A stretch of DNA of 30,576 nucleotides from IMG/VR virus record IMGVR_UViG_3300017751_000127, positions 1 through 30,576 of that record; one strand, written 5' to 3'. Shown here piece by piece: positions 1 to 30,499 of this stretch. The notes below the pieces were generated by a model. That model did not search any database. It saw nothing but the letters and a program-made list of their open reading frames with translations, and had not been told where the DNA came from. The translations under genes and the position numbers were made by a program. Source of the stretch: a virus. Position 1 is the stretch's first letter, and each line of letters starts with the position of its first letter.

Positions 1-102
1 AGAGGGAAGGGGGAGCACCGCCCCCATAAAGCGAACACGACCGCATTTTTGAGCGACAAAAAGTCAAGATGTGGGCAAAAGGATATTGTAAAAGGATAAA
101 AA
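1..102. other. Left-end intergenic region, possible cos-proximal DNA
   Basis: No gene is seen here. Positions 9-13 (GGGGG) and 21-25 (CCCCC) form a GC-only inverted repeat with a 7-nt loop. The 10-mer CACCGCCCCC at 16-25 is repeated exactly at the extreme right end (30567-30576). In HK97-like cos phages the order is HNH nuclease, cos, small terminase. Here HNH ends at 30499 and the small terminase starts at 103, so this stretch plus 30517-30576 is where a cos site would lie if the genome is circularised. That is inference; no cos consensus was recognised. Confidence 0.4.
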
Positions 103-552
103 ATGAGCAAAGGAAGAAAACCAAAACCAACGGCGATGTTGAAAGCGCAAGGAACATTTGACGCAAGCCGCCACAAAAACAGATTGGAAGCCGACGGAAT
201 CCCATCGGTTCCCGCGGTCCAATCCGCTGGCGAAACGTTTGATTGGTTGGTGAAAAAATTGGACGACCTTGGTGTCGTTGCGGACGTCGATGGAATGGCG
301 TTGCAGATGTTAGCGGACGCGTGGGAAGATTATCAAGTCGCGCGGAATGTCATCAAGGAACAAGGACCGACCTATTCCACGACGACGGCACAAGGCGATT
401 TGATGTGGCGACCGCGCCCCGAAGTTTTAATGATGAACCAATCGTGGGCGAAGGTTGAAAAGATGATGACGCAATTTGGATTGACGGCATCGTCACGCGC
501 CAAAATTGAAATGCAAGAAAAGATTGAAACACTTGACGATTTAATTGAATGA
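103..552 (+). CDS. terS: Terminase small subunit, P27 family
   Basis: A 149-aa protein, the normal size for the P27 (Terminase_4) family. Seen: an N-terminal GRKPKPT motif, a central helical part with LGVVADVDGMALQML, and a C-terminal FGLTASSRAKI motif, all typical of P27 small terminases. It should bind the packaging site on phage DNA and recruit the large subunit. The start ATG follows an A-rich run (GTAAAAGGATAAAAA). The gene overlaps the large terminase start by 4 nt (ATGA), so the two are translationally coupled. It is probably transcribed with the HNH nuclease at the other end of the window. Confidence 0.88.
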   Translation: MSKGRKPKPTAMLKAQGTFDASRHKNRLEADGIPSVPAVQSAGETFDWLVKKLDDLGVVADVDGMALQMLADAWEDYQVARNVIKEQGPTYSTTTAQGDLMWRPRPEVLMMNQSWAKVEKMMTQFGLTASSRAKIEMQEKIETLDDLIE

Positions 553-1019
553 CACACGACAAAACAAAATCCACGCGAATCATCAATTTCATTGAACGGG
601 TTTGCACCCATGTGAAAGGTGATTTGGCGGGTCAACCATTCTTGTTGGAAGAATGGCAAAAACAATTCATCCACGATTTGTTCGGGACGATGAACGCGTC
701 GGGGTTGCGACAATATCGAACAAGCTATGTCCAGATTCCGCGAAAGAATGGAAAATCAAATTTGTCGGCGGCGATTGCGTTGGCGGTGTTGTTTGTTGAA
801 AAAGAACAAGGCGCGGAAATCTATTGTTGCGCATCGTCACGGGACCAAGCGAAAATAGTGTTTGAGGTCTGCAAACAAATGGTTCGGAATTCGGCAATCT
901 TGACAAAGAATTGCAAGACGTTTCAAAATTCAATTGTGTTGAACGGAACAAATTCGTTTCTTAAAGCGGTCGCCGCGGATGCGGGACTATTGCACGGCGC
1001 GAATGCGTCGTGTGGTTAA
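549..1019 (+). CDS. terL: Terminase large subunit, N-terminal part (ATPase up to Walker B)
   Basis: This 156-aa ORF is the first part of an HK97-type (Terminase_1) large terminase, the motor that pumps DNA into the prohead. Walker A is visible as IPRKNGKS (about residues 63-70), followed by the expected EIYCCASSRDQA strand and the ADAGLLHGANAS segment. In the family this segment runs straight into the Walker B strand. Here the frame instead reads Cys-Gly-stop (TGT GGT TAA, 1011-1019) and Walker B (CVIYDELH) lies 40 nt downstream in the +1 frame. The gene is therefore interrupted, or is read through by recoding (see 1014-1044). On its own this fragment lacks Walker B and the nuclease, so it cannot be a working terminase. 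Confidence 0.85.
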   Translation: MTHDKTKSTRIINFIERVCTHVKGDLAGQPFLLEEWQKQFIHDLFGTMNASGLRQYRTSYVQIPRKNGKSNLSAAIALAVLFVEKEQGAEIYCCASSRDQAKIVFEVCKQMVRNSAILTKNCKTFQNSIVLNGTNSFLKAVAADAGLLHGANASCG

Positions 1020-2139
1020 CCCCCCGAATTTCGGTTCGGGGGGTGAAGATTGCGTTATTTACGATGAATTACACACGGCGAAAAATCGCGAATTGTGGGA
1101 TGTGATGGCGACGTCTATGGGCGCACGTTCACAACCTTTAATGATTGCCATCACAACGGCGGGCGTGTTCGACACGAATTCCATTTGTCACGAATTGTAT
1201 TCCTATGGGAAAAGAGTTGGCGAAGGCGTCATCGACGACGATACCTTTTTGCCGTTGATATATGAGGCGGAACCAGACGACGACATCCATGATTTGGAAA
1301 CGTGGAAAAAGGCGAATCCGAATTTTGGAATCAGTATCAAACCAGAATATTTCGAAAAGATGTCACGCGAGGCCAAGACATTGCCGTCGTCGGAAATCGC
1401 ATTCCGTCAGTTGCATTTGAACCAATGGGTGAATTCTTTGGCGTCTTGGATTACGGACGACGAATGGATGAAATCGTCGGGCGTTGTGGAATTGGAAAAA
1501 CTGAAGGGTCGCAAATGTTACGGCGGATTAGATTTGGCCGCCGTTGAAGATGTCACCGCGTTCGTGTTGGCGTTTCCTATGGACGACGAATCCATCAAGA
1601 TTGTTCCGTTTCTGTTTGTGAGTGAAGCGGCGGTCGAACGCCGTCGGAATCAAACGGGTGGGTCTTACGATACGTTTGTAAGTAATGGCGAATTGATTGT
1701 GACGGAAGGGAATTCCACGGATTACAATGTCATTCAAAAGAAGATTCTGGAATGTGCGGAAATCTTTGACATTCAGTCGGTGGCGTTTGACCGATGGAAT
1801 TCGAATTCATTGGTTCAGCAATTGACGGACTCGGGTGTTGAAATGGACCCGTTTGGTCAAGGATTTATTTCGATGACGTCACCAATAAAGAATGCGGAAA
1901 TTCTGGTCAAAAAACGATTGTTGCATCACGGCGGTCACGGAATGTTGCGTTGGATGGCGGCGAATGTGGTGACGAAAAAGGACGATGCGGAAAATGTAAA
2001 ATTCAGCAAATCAAAGGCGGGCGATAAGATTGACGGAATCATTGCCATGATAATGGCGTTGGGTGAAATGATGACGATGGAAAACAAGGACATGACGGGT
2101 TCGTCCACTTATGAATCGCAAGGAATTAGAATGCTATGA
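979..2139 (+). CDS. terL: Terminase large subunit, C-terminal part (Walker B, motif III, nuclease)
   Basis: This frame carries the rest of the large terminase. From 1051 it encodes CVIYDELHTAKNRELWDV (Walker B Asp-Glu), the ATPase coupling motif AITTAG, and an RNase H-like nuclease with acidic residues in GGLDLAAVED, VAFDRWNS and KIDGIIAM. Length and order match HK97-type terminases once joined to the 549-1019 part. The first codons from the ATG at 979 overlap the upstream frame and give a sequence unlike terminases (MRDYCTARMRR), so 979 is almost certainly not the true start. Translation probably enters this frame at 1018 (+1 shift) or 1045 (bypass). Identity is certain; expression mode is not. 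Confidence 0.82.
   Translation: MRDYCTARMRRVVNPPNFGSGGEDCVIYDELHTAKNRELWDVMATSMGARSQPLMIAITTAGVFDTNSICHELYSYGKRVGEGVIDDDTFLPLIYEAEPDDDIHDLETWKKANPNFGISIKPEYFEKMSREAKTLPSSEIAFRQLHLNQWVNSLASWITDDEWMKSSGVVELEKLKGRKCYGGLDLAAVEDVTAFVLAFPMDDESIKIVPFLFVSEAAVERRRNQTGGSYDTFVSNGELIVTEGNSTDYNVIQKKILECAEIFDIQSVAFDRWNSNSLVQQLTDSGVEMDPFGQGFISMTSPIKNAEILVKKRLLHHGGHGMLRWMAANVVTKKDDAENVKFSKSKAGDKIDGIIAMIMALGEMMTMENKDMTGSSTYESQGIRML
1014..1044 (+). promoter_or_regulatory. Candidate translational bypass/recoding element inside terL
   Basis: Seen: GGT (1014-1016), stop TAA (1017-1019), an inverted repeat ACCCCCCGAA (1019-1028) / TTCGGGGGGT (1035-1044) with loop TTTCGG, and a second GGT at 1042-1044. Decoding from 1045 gives Glu-Asp-Cys-Val-Ile-Tyr-Asp-Glu, the Walker B strand. 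A jump from the first GGT to the last skips 28 nt (UAA plus the hairpin) and restores frame; another in-frame GGT lies at 1033-1035. T4 gene 60 has matched GGA take-off and landing codons, a stop just after take-off and a hairpin. A simple +1 shift at GGT-TAA would also reach the frame. Function is inference. Confidence 0.5.
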
Positions 2140-6990: not shown

Positions 6991-7178
6991 TGAAAGTTAA
7001 GTTCAACCAATCGGTTGTCGGGAATACATTCCACCACGTCGTTGATGACGTGGTGGATTTACCCGAAGCCGAAGCACGAAAGTTTTTGAATTCGGGTCTT
7101 TGTGAGGCGGTCCCAGAACCACCGAAGAAACGCGCGAAAAAAGCGGTGAAGAAAAGCACATCAAAAGAAACACGATAA
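6990..7178 (+). CDS. Small basic head-associated protein (62 aa)
   Basis: MKVKFNQSVVGNTFHHV followed by VVDLPEAEARKFLNSGLCEAV resembles short proteins that sit just after the capsid gene in many HK97-like operons (KVKF..SV.G....G..VDLP..EA..L...G..E). A lysine-rich, histone-like tail (KKRAKKAVKKSTSKETR) follows. Its ATG overlaps the capsid stop by 1 nt and it abuts the connector gene. Likely a virion or head-completion component, possibly DNA-contacting through the tail. The function is inferred only from position. Confidence 0.65.
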   Translation: MKVKFNQSVVGNTFHHVVDDVVDLPEAEARKFLNSGLCEAVPEPPKKRAKKAVKKSTSKETR

Positions 7179-17351: not shown

Positions 17352-17507
17352 ATGTCAATCCACGACCTAAAATTGTACACCATCAACACGTTGACCATGG
17401 CGGTCACGTTCACCAACATTGAATCGACGTTGAAAATTGTTTTGCTTTTTGCGTCCATCGGGTACACGTTACAACGCTGGTATATTATGAACAAGAAAAA
17501 TGATTGA
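17352..17507 (+). CDS. Small membrane protein (51 aa), second holin-like candidate
   Basis: MSIHDLKLYTINTLTMAVTFTNI, then TLKIVLLFASIGYTLQRWY and a basic tail ending KKND. It has one clear hydrophobic helix (about residues 27-45) and possibly a weaker one before it. It lies 3 nt after the putative holin and overlaps the histidine kinase ATG by 1 nt (TGATG), so it is part of the same operon. It may be a holin partner or antiholin. Not recognised as a specific family. Confidence 0.6.
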   Translation: MSIHDLKLYTINTLTMAVTFTNIESTLKIVLLFASIGYTLQRWYIMNKKND

Positions 17508-18745
17508 TGCGTTTATCGATTGCGTCAAAAATATGTTTGGCCATTGCCGTTGCAATCATGATTTGTTTTTTTGCAATGCAGACGGCATTGGTCATCGGGT
17601 ATCAAGAAACAACACACACCACCACATTGATTGGTTGGTTGTCGGTTGTTTTGTTCATGCCGTTTTTCTTCTTTGTTGTCGTTGAATTCGTTCGTCAAAC
17701 ACGATACAAATTCCAAACCATTGACGACACATTGTCGGCAATCAACGAATCAAACATGTTGGTTGAATTCGAATTGGATGGGACAATCGTTTCGTGCAAT
17801 GATATTTTTTGCGACGTCATGGGGTACAATCGCGACGAGTTAATCGGAACCAAACACAAACAATTCACCACAACACATGATTTCGATTCAACAAAATATC
17901 ATTCATTTTGGTACGATTTAAAGCGTGGAAAAATCAAGTCTGGTGAATTCATTCGGAAAACAAAATCGGGCGCGTTGGTTTGGATTTACGGAAACTACAA
18001 TCCAATAAAAAATCCCTATGGGGAAACATATCGCGTTTTAAAGATTGCCACCGACATCACCGACAAAAAGAACATTGAAATCGAGGTCGGCAAAAAGAAC
18101 GCGTATCTGGAACACGCCGCAAAGATTTTGCGCCACGATATGCATTCGGGAATCAACACATATATTCCCCGCGGATTGGGTTCGCTGAAACGTAGGTTGA
18201 CCGACGACCAAATCAAAACGATGAAGATAGGCGCGCCAATAAGAATGATTCAAGAAGGATTGACACACACACAACGCGTTTATAAAGGTGTTAAAGAGTT
18301 CACCAACCTTGTGAAATTGGATTCCCAATTGGAAAAGAACCCGCACGATTTACGGGAAATCTTGACGAATTATTTGGACGCGACGGCATATTTCAAACAA
18401 GTCATTTTGAACGATTTGATTGTGTGCGACGTCAATGATTCTTTATTTTGTACCGCGATAGATAATTTTATTCGGAACGGATTGAAGTACAATGACGCCC
18501 CAACAAAAGTGGTTTCTTTGTATATGGAAAACGATTCCACGTTGGTCATTGAAGATAATGGGCGCGGGATGTCGCAATCCGATTTTGAACAATTGTCGAA
18601 GCCGTACACGCGACGCGACGGCCAAAAAGAAAATGGAACGGGATTGGGATTGAACATTTGTGTCGCCATCATGGACGAACACGGGTTCGGAATCACCGCG
18701 GAAAAATTAGAACAAGGAACCAAAATTAGAATACACATACAATGA
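17507..18745 (+). CDS. Membrane PAS-domain sensor histidine kinase
   Basis: A 412-aa histidine kinase, start ATG 17507 overlapping the previous stop. Seen: two membrane helices (about 8-30 and 41-61) with only a short loop between, a PAS domain (about 72-187; LVEFELDGTIVSCND, FCDVMGYNRDELIG, then ITDKKNIE), a phospho-acceptor H-box around His210 (KILRHDMHSGIN), an N-box (IDNFIRNGLKYND, about 318-330), G1 (EDNGRGM, 349-355) and G2 (GTGLGL, 377-382). All catalytic boxes look intact. With almost no periplasmic domain, the signal is probably membrane or cytosolic. Its partner is the next gene (ATGA overlap). A full kinase is rare in phages. Confidence 0.88.
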   Translation: MRLSIASKICLAIAVAIMICFFAMQTALVIGYQETTHTTTLIGWLSVVLFMPFFFFVVVEFVRQTRYKFQTIDDTLSAINESNMLVEFELDGTIVSCNDIFCDVMGYNRDELIGTKHKQFTTTHDFDSTKYHSFWYDLKRGKIKSGEFIRKTKSGALVWIYGNYNPIKNPYGETYRVLKIATDITDKKNIEIEVGKKNAYLEHAAKILRHDMHSGINTYIPRGLGSLKRRLTDDQIKTMKIGAPIRMIQEGLTHTQRVYKGVKEFTNLVKLDSQLEKNPHDLREILTNYLDATAYFKQVILNDLIVCDVNDSLFCTAIDNFIRNGLKYNDAPTKVVSLYMENDSTLVIEDNGRGMSQSDFEQLSKPYTRRDGQKENGTGLGLNICVAIMDEHGFGITAEKLEQGTKIRIHIQ

Positions 18746-19179
18746 TAAAATCAATTTTACTGGTCGATGACGAAGATTTGTTTCACCTTGTTTTTGAAGA
18801 TGCTTGTTCGTTGCTTGACATGACCTTATCATTGGAAGCGTTGAATTCATCGGATGAGGCCGACAGATTGTTCAAAGAATGGTTTGAAGGCAACGACAAA
18901 AACGCCCGACCCGAATGTGTATTTGTAGACCTAAACATCATTGGTTCGTCATTTGACGGCATTGAATTGATTCGTAAAATCAACACCGATTATGGCAACG
19001 GCGTGGTCATCGGAATCATTTCATCGTCGGACGACAACAAAGAGATTGAAAAAGCCAAATCCGTGGGCGCACAATTCTGGATTATTAAGAGCGACGAAAT
19101 AGAACCGCGGTTGGAACAATTCGTTTCCGATTACGATGGCTATGTGAAAAAGACAAACGCGTTCAAGGTTTACAACTAA
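18742..19179 (+). CDS. Single-domain response regulator (CheY-like)
   Basis: A 145-aa receiver domain without an output domain. Key residues: Asp9/Asp10 (VDDED), phospho-acceptor Asp63 (VFVDLN), Ser94 (GIISSSDD) and Lys116 (WIIKSDE). It should accept phosphate from the kinase encoded just upstream (4-nt overlap). With no DNA-binding domain it must act by protein contact, for example on the host transcription or signalling network or on the membrane proteins encoded next. Codon use equals that of the neighbours, so the pair is well adapted to this phage lineage. Confidence 0.88.
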   Translation: MIKSILLVDDEDLFHLVFEDACSLLDMTLSLEALNSSDEADRLFKEWFEGNDKNARPECVFVDLNIIGSSFDGIELIRKINTDYGNGVVIGIISSSDDNKEIEKAKSVGAQFWIIKSDEIEPRLEQFVSDYDGYVKKTNAFKVYN

Positions 19180-22477: not shown

Positions 22478-22891
22478 ATGAACGTTAGACCAATTATGAT
22501 GATGGAAGAAATGGTCAAGGTGTTGCGCGACGAATACAATGTCAACGCAATGGAAAAGACCAGAAAGGAAGCCGTCGTCATTCCACGGGCGGCGTTGTTC
22601 AATGTGTGTCGCGGATATTATTCCGCGACGCAAATTGGCCAATTCTTCGAAAAGAACCACGCCACCATTTTGCACCATTTCAAGAATCATGAATCATTCA
22701 TGATGTTGCCGCAATACGTTGAAATCTACGAACGATTGATGGAAGTGTTGGCGGAATATGATGACCGCGCAAGACACGCGAAGAAGGAACGCGAGTTGCG
22801 AAAAGAACAGATTCACGAATTGACGGAACAAGTCGATGAACTGCAACGTGAAAACGAATCGTTGCGTGAAAAGTTGGACGCCTATGTTTAA
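22478..22891 (+). CDS. DnaA domain IV-like DNA-binding protein with coiled coil
   Basis: A 137-aa protein. Residues 37-72 (PRAALFNVCRGYYSATQIGQFFEKNHATILHHFKNHE) have the helix-turn-helix pattern of DnaA domain IV, where the ATILHH segment corresponds to the DnaA signature DHSTV.H. No ATPase domain is present. Residues 90-135 form a strongly charged coiled coil (RHAKKERELRKEQIHELTEQVDELQ), likely for dimerisation. Next to SSB, it is a candidate origin-binding protein or regulator of host initiation. The next gene overlaps it by 8 nt. Confidence 0.68.
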   Translation: MNVRPIMMMEEMVKVLRDEYNVNAMEKTRKEAVVIPRAALFNVCRGYYSATQIGQFFEKNHATILHHFKNHESFMMLPQYVEIYERLMEVLAEYDDRARHAKKERELRKEQIHELTEQVDELQRENESLREKLDAYV

Positions 22892-30208: not shown

Positions 30209-30499
30209 ATGCCTAACGTACCAAAGAGAAAACAACGGCCGTGGTTGCAAGGTCAAAACAAGTCAAGCAAAGCACGGATTGAAAGAAATAAATTCTATCA
30301 GTCAACCGCATGGCGAAGATTGCGCGGAATGTTTATCAAGCGGAACCCGTTGTGTGTTGAATGTGAAAGCGTTGGGCAAGTTGTTGACCACATCGTCCCA
30401 ATCAAAAGCGGTGGTGATTCGTTGGCTTGGGACAACTTGCAAACGATGTGTCATCGGTGTCACAATGTTAAATCGGGGCGTGAATCCCATGGAATATGA
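30209..30499 (+). CDS. HNH endonuclease (terminase-associated type)
   Basis: A 96-aa HNH nuclease. FYQSTAWRRLRGMFIKRNPLCVEC (29-52), then VVDHIVPIKSGGD (58-70; Asp60-His61), N76 in WDNLQTMC and CHRCHN (81-86). The CxxC...CxxC pairs form the zinc site and DH...N...H the catalytic motif. In HK97-like cos phages such an HNH protein, encoded next to cos and terS, is needed for terminase cleavage. Being at the right end while terS is at the left end implies that the ends meet. Stop TGA at 30497-30499 runs into a terminator hairpin. Confidence 0.88.
   Translation: MPNVPKRKQRPWLQGQNKSSKARIERNKFYQSTAWRRLRGMFIKRNPLCVECESVGQVVDHIVPIKSGGDSLAWDNLQTMCHRCHNVKSGRESHGI

Follow-up and report, generated by a model that had tools for sequence, protein, structure and literature searches.

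The window analyzed here is a 30,576-nt stretch of viral DNA (positions 1 to 30,576 of IMG/VR virus record IMGVR_UViG_3300017751_000127). It opens with terS and terL, and the latter, encoding the large terminase subunit, is interrupted directly before its Walker B motif (Table 1). The open reading frame at 549–1019 terminates as ...GANASCG* via TGT GGT TAA (1011–1019), while the remainder of terL, up to 2139, lies in the +1 frame; this is the single frame break in the gene. A Pfam profile search of the window splits PF03354 (TerL_ATPase) into two matches (651–1007 and 1042–1215), followed by TerL_nuclease, and finds no second terL. Leaving out exactly positions 1011–1050 yields ...GANAS|CVIYDELH, as found in relatives that have no interruption. 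An earlier inspection of the DNA (the sequence-only reading) had described a 40-nt segment splitting terL before Walker B and had predicted GANAS-CVIYDELH upon its exact removal; its coordinates and content hold, and the predicted product matches the relatives. When the genes of the window were compared with their relatives, an interruption was found in terL only.

The closest solved relative of the window TerL is the HK97-type protein in PDB 6z6d (E value 1.4e-74), which we take to be the terminase large subunit of phage HK97. It has Walker B at the same position but is uninterrupted, and the alignment runs through the motif without a gap. In an AlphaFold model of an uninterrupted relative (L002; 31 rows, mean predicted local distance difference test score of 65, moderate quality), the joint Ser154|155 falls on the start residue of the Walker B strand (155–159).

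Table 1. Features at the interrupted terL locus (window coordinates).
Feature	Position	Strand	Basis or remark
terS, first gene of the window	103–552		PF05119
terL 5′ part, through Ser154: N-terminal ATPase half including Walker A	549–1010	+	PF03354, 1.7e-16; homologues without interruption continue
Flanking haplotype common to all carriers, approximate (–61 to +20 around the insert)	950–1071	+	Mismatch map, windowed identities
SL1 hairpin, 9 bp, 3′ arm ending on the UGU codon	992–1013	+	Directly upstream of the insert hairpin
40-nt insert TGTGGTTAACCCCCCGAATTTCGGTTCGGGGGGTGAAGAT	1011–1050	+	Halves exactly 40 nt apart in each of 5 distinct carriers, 0 nt apart in relatives
UGU (Cys), proposed take-off codon	1011–1013	+	With 1051, sole same-tRNA pair open in L001
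SL2 hairpin, 11 bp at 1019–1044; 14 bp in L001 (1016–1047)	1016–1047	+	In the window, 1018–1045 is an A·G mismatch
UAA stop closing the upstream frame	1017–1019	+	Invariant across carriers
terL 3′ part: Walker B CVIYDELH and nuclease domain	1051–2139	+	PF03354 second piece; PF20441, 2.5e-45
UGC (Cys), proposed landing codon; starts the Walker B strand	1051–1053	+	Codon-pair analysis, L002 model

Occupied and empty sites

Relatives were gathered by a protein search of IMG/VR, which gave 84 distinct haplotypes covering the site. Five of these carry the insert: the window itself (W) and four further contigs, L001 (=L082), L003, L004 (=L083), and L020 (=L087), all with the insert at the same codon boundary and each of the five from a different metagenome assembly. 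The other 79 lack it and read ANAS|C or ANAS|A before VIYDELH, plus variants. The two gene halves are 40 nt apart in every carrier and 0 nt apart in the others, the single exception being a contig whose small frame error lies elsewhere. Because four other contigs contain the same 40 nt at the same boundary, the insert is not an assembly error; it is real and more than a chance occurrence.

Across carriers, the insert differs at four points. L004 has GAAAAT and L001 TAAGAT where the window has GAAGAT, and L020 has CGGATTTAGG instead of CGAATTTCGG. One change converts a stem A-U pair to G-U, one lies in the loop, and two fall in the 3′ tail, with the TGTGGTTAA stretch left untouched.

The window contains a single exact copy of the element. 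A broad pattern scan turned up no convincing copy in other genes of the collection; matches beyond the terL carriers, on six contigs, were unrelated repeats or palindromes. The hairpin had no match in GTDB genome contigs or, by blastn, in phage records, and a literature search limited to open-access papers retrieved no paper on the element. Two other terL frame breaks, in L140 (~2495) and L144 (~2101), were considered as further cases and discarded, being single small shifts elsewhere in the gene that lack a hairpin; they are probably contig errors or lesions. The same probably applies to L035/L233, where the terL of L035 is missing 38 codons in frame.

The empty sites could be thought to represent precise loss of the DNA from part of the population, as with a transposable or phase-variable hairpin, such that functional genomes would be those without the insert. 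Closely related insert-free haplotypes do exist (L002, L007). However, they cannot be the excised form of a carrier because they differ by ~17 flank changes, and there is no second copy of the element in the window and no convincing one in other genes of the collection. We give this explanation only a slight chance.

A recombining haplotype around the insert

The sequence flanking the insert sets carriers apart. Between –52 and +28, they are 95–100% identical to each other and each differs by at least 15% from every non-carrier. Between –60 and 0, the four similar carriers share 98.3% identity, as compared to 80% with L002, 84% with L006, and 72% with L005. Outside this flank, the same four are 3–4.5% apart, about the same distance that separates them from the non-carriers L002 and L007. 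Flank differences between carriers and L002 are all synonymous, save for the joint codon (Ala to Cys). The fifth carrier, L020, resembles the other carriers around the insert, but its downstream part is nearly identical to that of non-carrier L019 and its upstream part to that of L014/L027.

Trees reflect this mosaic. A local tree (–88 to +12) places the carriers in one clade with support of 96/99, whereas a distal tree (948 nt) rejects carrier monophyly (approximately unbiased test, p = 5e-44) and makes L020 the sister of non-carrier L019. Since the flank unites the carriers while the rest of the gene does not, the insert together with at least 80 nt of flank has spread by recombination, in a manner resembling a co-conversion tract, and the allele has reached at least two distant backgrounds. 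No carrier-specific homing endonuclease was found. The HNH gene at 30209–30499 does not set carriers apart, as it adjoins terS in non-carriers too and is general in this phage group. Compared with the window, L003 has additional small genes (~1.2 kb; 1652–2563) that separate terL from the following gene; no endonuclease was recognized among them on reading, family libraries not having been run on these genes.

A lethal insert should not spread, and its presence in five assemblies and several backgrounds leads us to take the gene as working: judged from these sequences, the terL of carriers is almost certainly functional. The sequence-only reading had left room for a dead gene or an assembly error, both unlikely given the five contigs and the spread across backgrounds. 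A related proposal is that TerL is made as two pieces, or that carrier genomes are defective and depend on others for packaging. Conventional translation indeed delivers only ANASCG* and a separate downstream reading frame. Yet each of the five carriers keeps both halves open, the ratio of nonsynonymous to synonymous substitution rates (dN/dS) between carriers is 0.01–0.09 where non-zero, the window lacks a second terL, and the allele has spread. Moreover, the downstream frame of L001 offers no ATG, GTG or TTG from the TAA up to Walker B, and a second TerL piece would therefore miss this motif. Taken together, we consider a split or dead gene quite unlikely.

Codon pairs, hairpins and a proposed ribosomal hop

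For each variant of the insert, we listed all codon pairs read by the same tRNA that link the upstream frame, at a codon ahead of UAA, with a stop-free stretch of the downstream one. In the window, several such pairs are open, including GGT(1014)→GGT(1042), the hop favored by the sequence-only reading, which would add Cys-Gly-Glu-Asp. Carrier L001, however, has a TAA directly after its second GGT (equivalent to 1045–1047). The sole same-tRNA hop left there is TGT(1011)→TGC(1051), a pair available in all five carriers. Its product, ANAS-C-VIYDELH, has zero extra residues and is the sequence of many uninterrupted relatives. The two codons are synonymous rather than identical; they share a tRNA, as one tRNA-Cys (anticodon GCA) normally decodes both UGU and UGC, and UGC lies in the correct landing frame. 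Both are ordinary (TGT 34, TGC 26), which dismisses a rare-codon explanation of the break; no tRNA genes were found in the window.

The same TAA bears on the proposal that a GGT→GGT hop or a +1 frameshift at GGT-TAA, the latter an alternative of the sequence-only reading, produces a TerL with 4–13 extra residues before Walker B. These routes are open in W, L003, L004, and L020, and modeling places the joint at a loop/strand boundary, where a loop insertion may be sterically possible. In L001, by contrast, both end translation because TAA follows the landing GGT, provided that the L001 base is right. In addition, GGU→GUU re-pairing is poor for a +1 shift, and the extra residues would vary between carriers (GEDC, GENC, PDLGS) and are seen in no insert-free relative. 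This explanation is therefore very unlikely, and the hop codons first proposed are not supported. The broader suggestion of a bypass element fares better: the locus holds a tolerated and apparently mobile hairpin insert that is best read as a bypass cassette.

Our preferred reading, to which we assign a probability of roughly 0.6 on the basis of sequence comparison, is that the terminase gene works and that its 40-nt insert is non-coding and skipped during translation by a Cys–Cys hop. Two RNA hairpins frame this proposal. SL2, within the insert, had been described as a 10-bp stem spanning 1019–1044; the span is correct, and the stem has 11 bp and a UUCG loop. At –21.0 kcal/mol, its stability is unsurpassed among 32-nt hairpins on both strands of the window and equaled by one at 7027. 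Folding against shuffled sequences gives z scores of –3.45 for the 40-nt insert and –5.06 for that of L001. All four changes within the insert keep or strengthen SL2, one L001 change adding an A-U pair and extending the stem to 14 bp. In this extended form, only GG precedes and GAU follows the stem, which brings take-off and landing codons to within five unpaired nt of each other across the hairpin and suggests a ribosome stepping over the folded structure. SL1, upstream, reaches –15.2 kcal/mol in all carriers, as compared to a best value of –11.2 and a median of –7.0 kcal/mol among the 79 non-carriers.

Further very stable hairpins occur in the window at 7027–7058 (–21.0 kcal/mol) and 22602–22633 (–20.6 kcal/mol), in apparent coding sequence with no frame break noted. 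Between genes, a terminator-like hairpin, CCCCCCGCTGAAACAAACGGGGGG, is present at 2631–2660 of the window, in L003 (~2569–2621 and 2953–2991), and in L169 and L171. It recurs in this phage group, sometimes several times per contig, and is a possible source of CCCCCCG...CGGGGGG hairpins. A terminator origin of the insert hairpin was considered and set aside: such intergenic repeats exist, but no link could be shown.

Mechanistically, we infer the skip itself, its occurrence on the ribosome, and every kinetic step. A ribosome would translate up to UGU (1011), the codon for Cys155, leaving peptidyl-tRNA-Cys in the P site. SL2, whose base lies in or just after the next codon, would hinder decoding of GGU-UAA; the tRNA would release UGU, the hairpin and tail would be passed, and the same tRNA would re-pair with UGC (1051), which lies 40 nt further on in the +1 frame. 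From there, decoding would resume at GUU to give the family sequence ...ANASC-VIYDELH..., with a predicted junction peptide GANASCVIYDELH. Refolding of SL1 behind the ribosome may aid forward movement, as has been proposed for the 5′ stem-loop of T4 gene 60. The insert and ~80 nt or more of flank would move between phages by recombination.

The principal rival is excision of the hairpin from the RNA followed by ligation, which would give the same joined message. In every carrier, including L001, it would account for precisely the same product, and the insert is a compact hairpin with its base near both joints; the exact cut would be ambiguous, as TG is common to both ends. Against this, 40 nt is far below the size of group I or II introns, and an Rfam search of the whole window gave no match at family cut-offs, to a conserved catalytic core or otherwise. 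Among weaker matches, the highest-scoring one that overlaps the insert (1007–1079; 2dG-II purine riboswitch, 21.7 bits against a cut-off of 60, E value 0.019) sits on the opposite, minus strand and is probably a chance hit caused by the hairpin. Bacteria and their phages are not known to have ligating mini-introns, and hairpin inserts of rRNA that are excised by RNase III are not religated. RNA excision thus seems unlikely.

Several points weigh against the Cys–Cys hop as well. The 22 residues preceding the joint are identical in carriers and the non-carriers L002 and L019, and a dedicated nascent-peptide signal is not apparent from sequence, the peptide being ordinary TerL, although this ordinary sequence may itself act in such a way. 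The stop lies one codon past the proposed take-off site (UGU GGU UAA) instead of adjacent to it as in T4, and a hairpin of 11–14 bp exceeds the small T4 A-site stem-loop, which poses an accommodation problem. SL1 may be incidental, because an empty ancestor with the same flank would form it too, and the conserved flank could be merely co-converted DNA and not a recoding signal. Two-sided compensatory changes are absent among the only five carriers. Lastly, purifying selection cannot be dated to after the insertion: outside the tract, carriers are as near to non-carriers as to one another, for which reason we dropped dN/dS as proof of function.

To our knowledge, T4 gene 60 is the one phage gene with demonstrated efficient programmed bypass of a long gap, to which yeast mitochondria can be added. 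If true, the terL hop would give phages another example, located in an essential gene and with natural occupied and empty alleles as well as point variants. It would then help separate what bypass truly needs (matched codons, a hairpin, a 5′ stem-loop) from T4 peculiarities (nascent peptide, adjacent stop), and would imply that bypass inserts spread among phages in the wild and that gene-calling programs break up or drop the genes that contain them. A more specific version, which we hold tentatively and at somewhat less than even odds, is that SL1, UGU-GGUUAA, SL2, and UGC form a self-contained cassette that requires no special nascent peptide and spreads by recombination among phage terminases. 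With the same reserve, it may be seen as a naturally polymorphic bypass element whose empty and occupied sites circulate in one phage population.

Known bypass systems and genome context

In T4 gene 60, a GGA take-off codon is followed by UAG, and an A-site stem-loop, a 5′ stem-loop, the nascent peptide, and a matched GGA landing codon take part (PMC5009743, PMC3014915, PMC11194080). The bypass covers 50 nt, with sliding processive up to 56 nt (PMC11194080, PMC5009743); a connection with DNA mobility has been suggested, and relatives without the gap exist (PMC5009743, PMC3014915, PMC11194080). In both cases, a phage gene is divided by a short gap that is non-coding and out of frame, contains a hairpin, and is absent from relatives; take-off and (for terL, proposed) landing codons are read by one tRNA, and a 5′ stem-loop is present. 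The terL insert differs from gene 60 in gene, phage group and host, in its codons (Cys UGU/UGC vs. GGA/GGA), its larger hairpin, the stop one codon later, and the ordinary nascent peptide. Whereas the T4 take-off codon lies inside the take-off hairpin, that of terL ends SL1. Also unlike gene 60, the insert is found in several genomes with recombining flanks and with no carrier-specific homing endonuclease detected. The likeness is an analogy at most, with no homology: the cassette is best read as similar to gene 60 in function and unrelated in origin.

For Streptomyces phage Hau3, bypass is reportedly suspected in the terminase, with a UUA codon and host decoding thought to matter, as opposed to the hairpin insert in terL here (PMC5009743). 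Mitochondria of Magnusiomyces capitatus have 81 byps in one genome, apparently independent of mRNA context (PMC5009743). Like the terL insert, these are short and frame-disrupting, and they are skipped on the ribosome; unlike them, the terL insert occupies one site in one gene, is strongly structured, and has a single exact copy in the window. Finally, a 29-nt hop was reported for an adhesin of Prevotella loescheii, with no follow-up after the first reports (PMC5009743). That gene is from a non-phage Bacteroidota source, and the phages described here look Bacteroidota-linked.

Among genome contigs, the seemingly informative match in a strain genome is to Cyclobacterium (Bacteroidota; 43% TerL identity), and on this sequence evidence the host is likely a member of the Bacteroidota. 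A WOR-3 metagenome bin matched at 85%, perhaps through a binning error. Elsewhere in the window, a PAS-domain histidine kinase (17504–18745; HATPase_c, PAS) is followed by an apparent response-regulator receiver protein (18742–19179), a two-component pair that is unusual in a small siphophage-like genome. At the left ends (window 1–103; L001, L002, L004, L005, and L006), many contigs of different metagenomes start 76–79 nt upstream of terS, which suggests a fixed genome end (cos) at this position.
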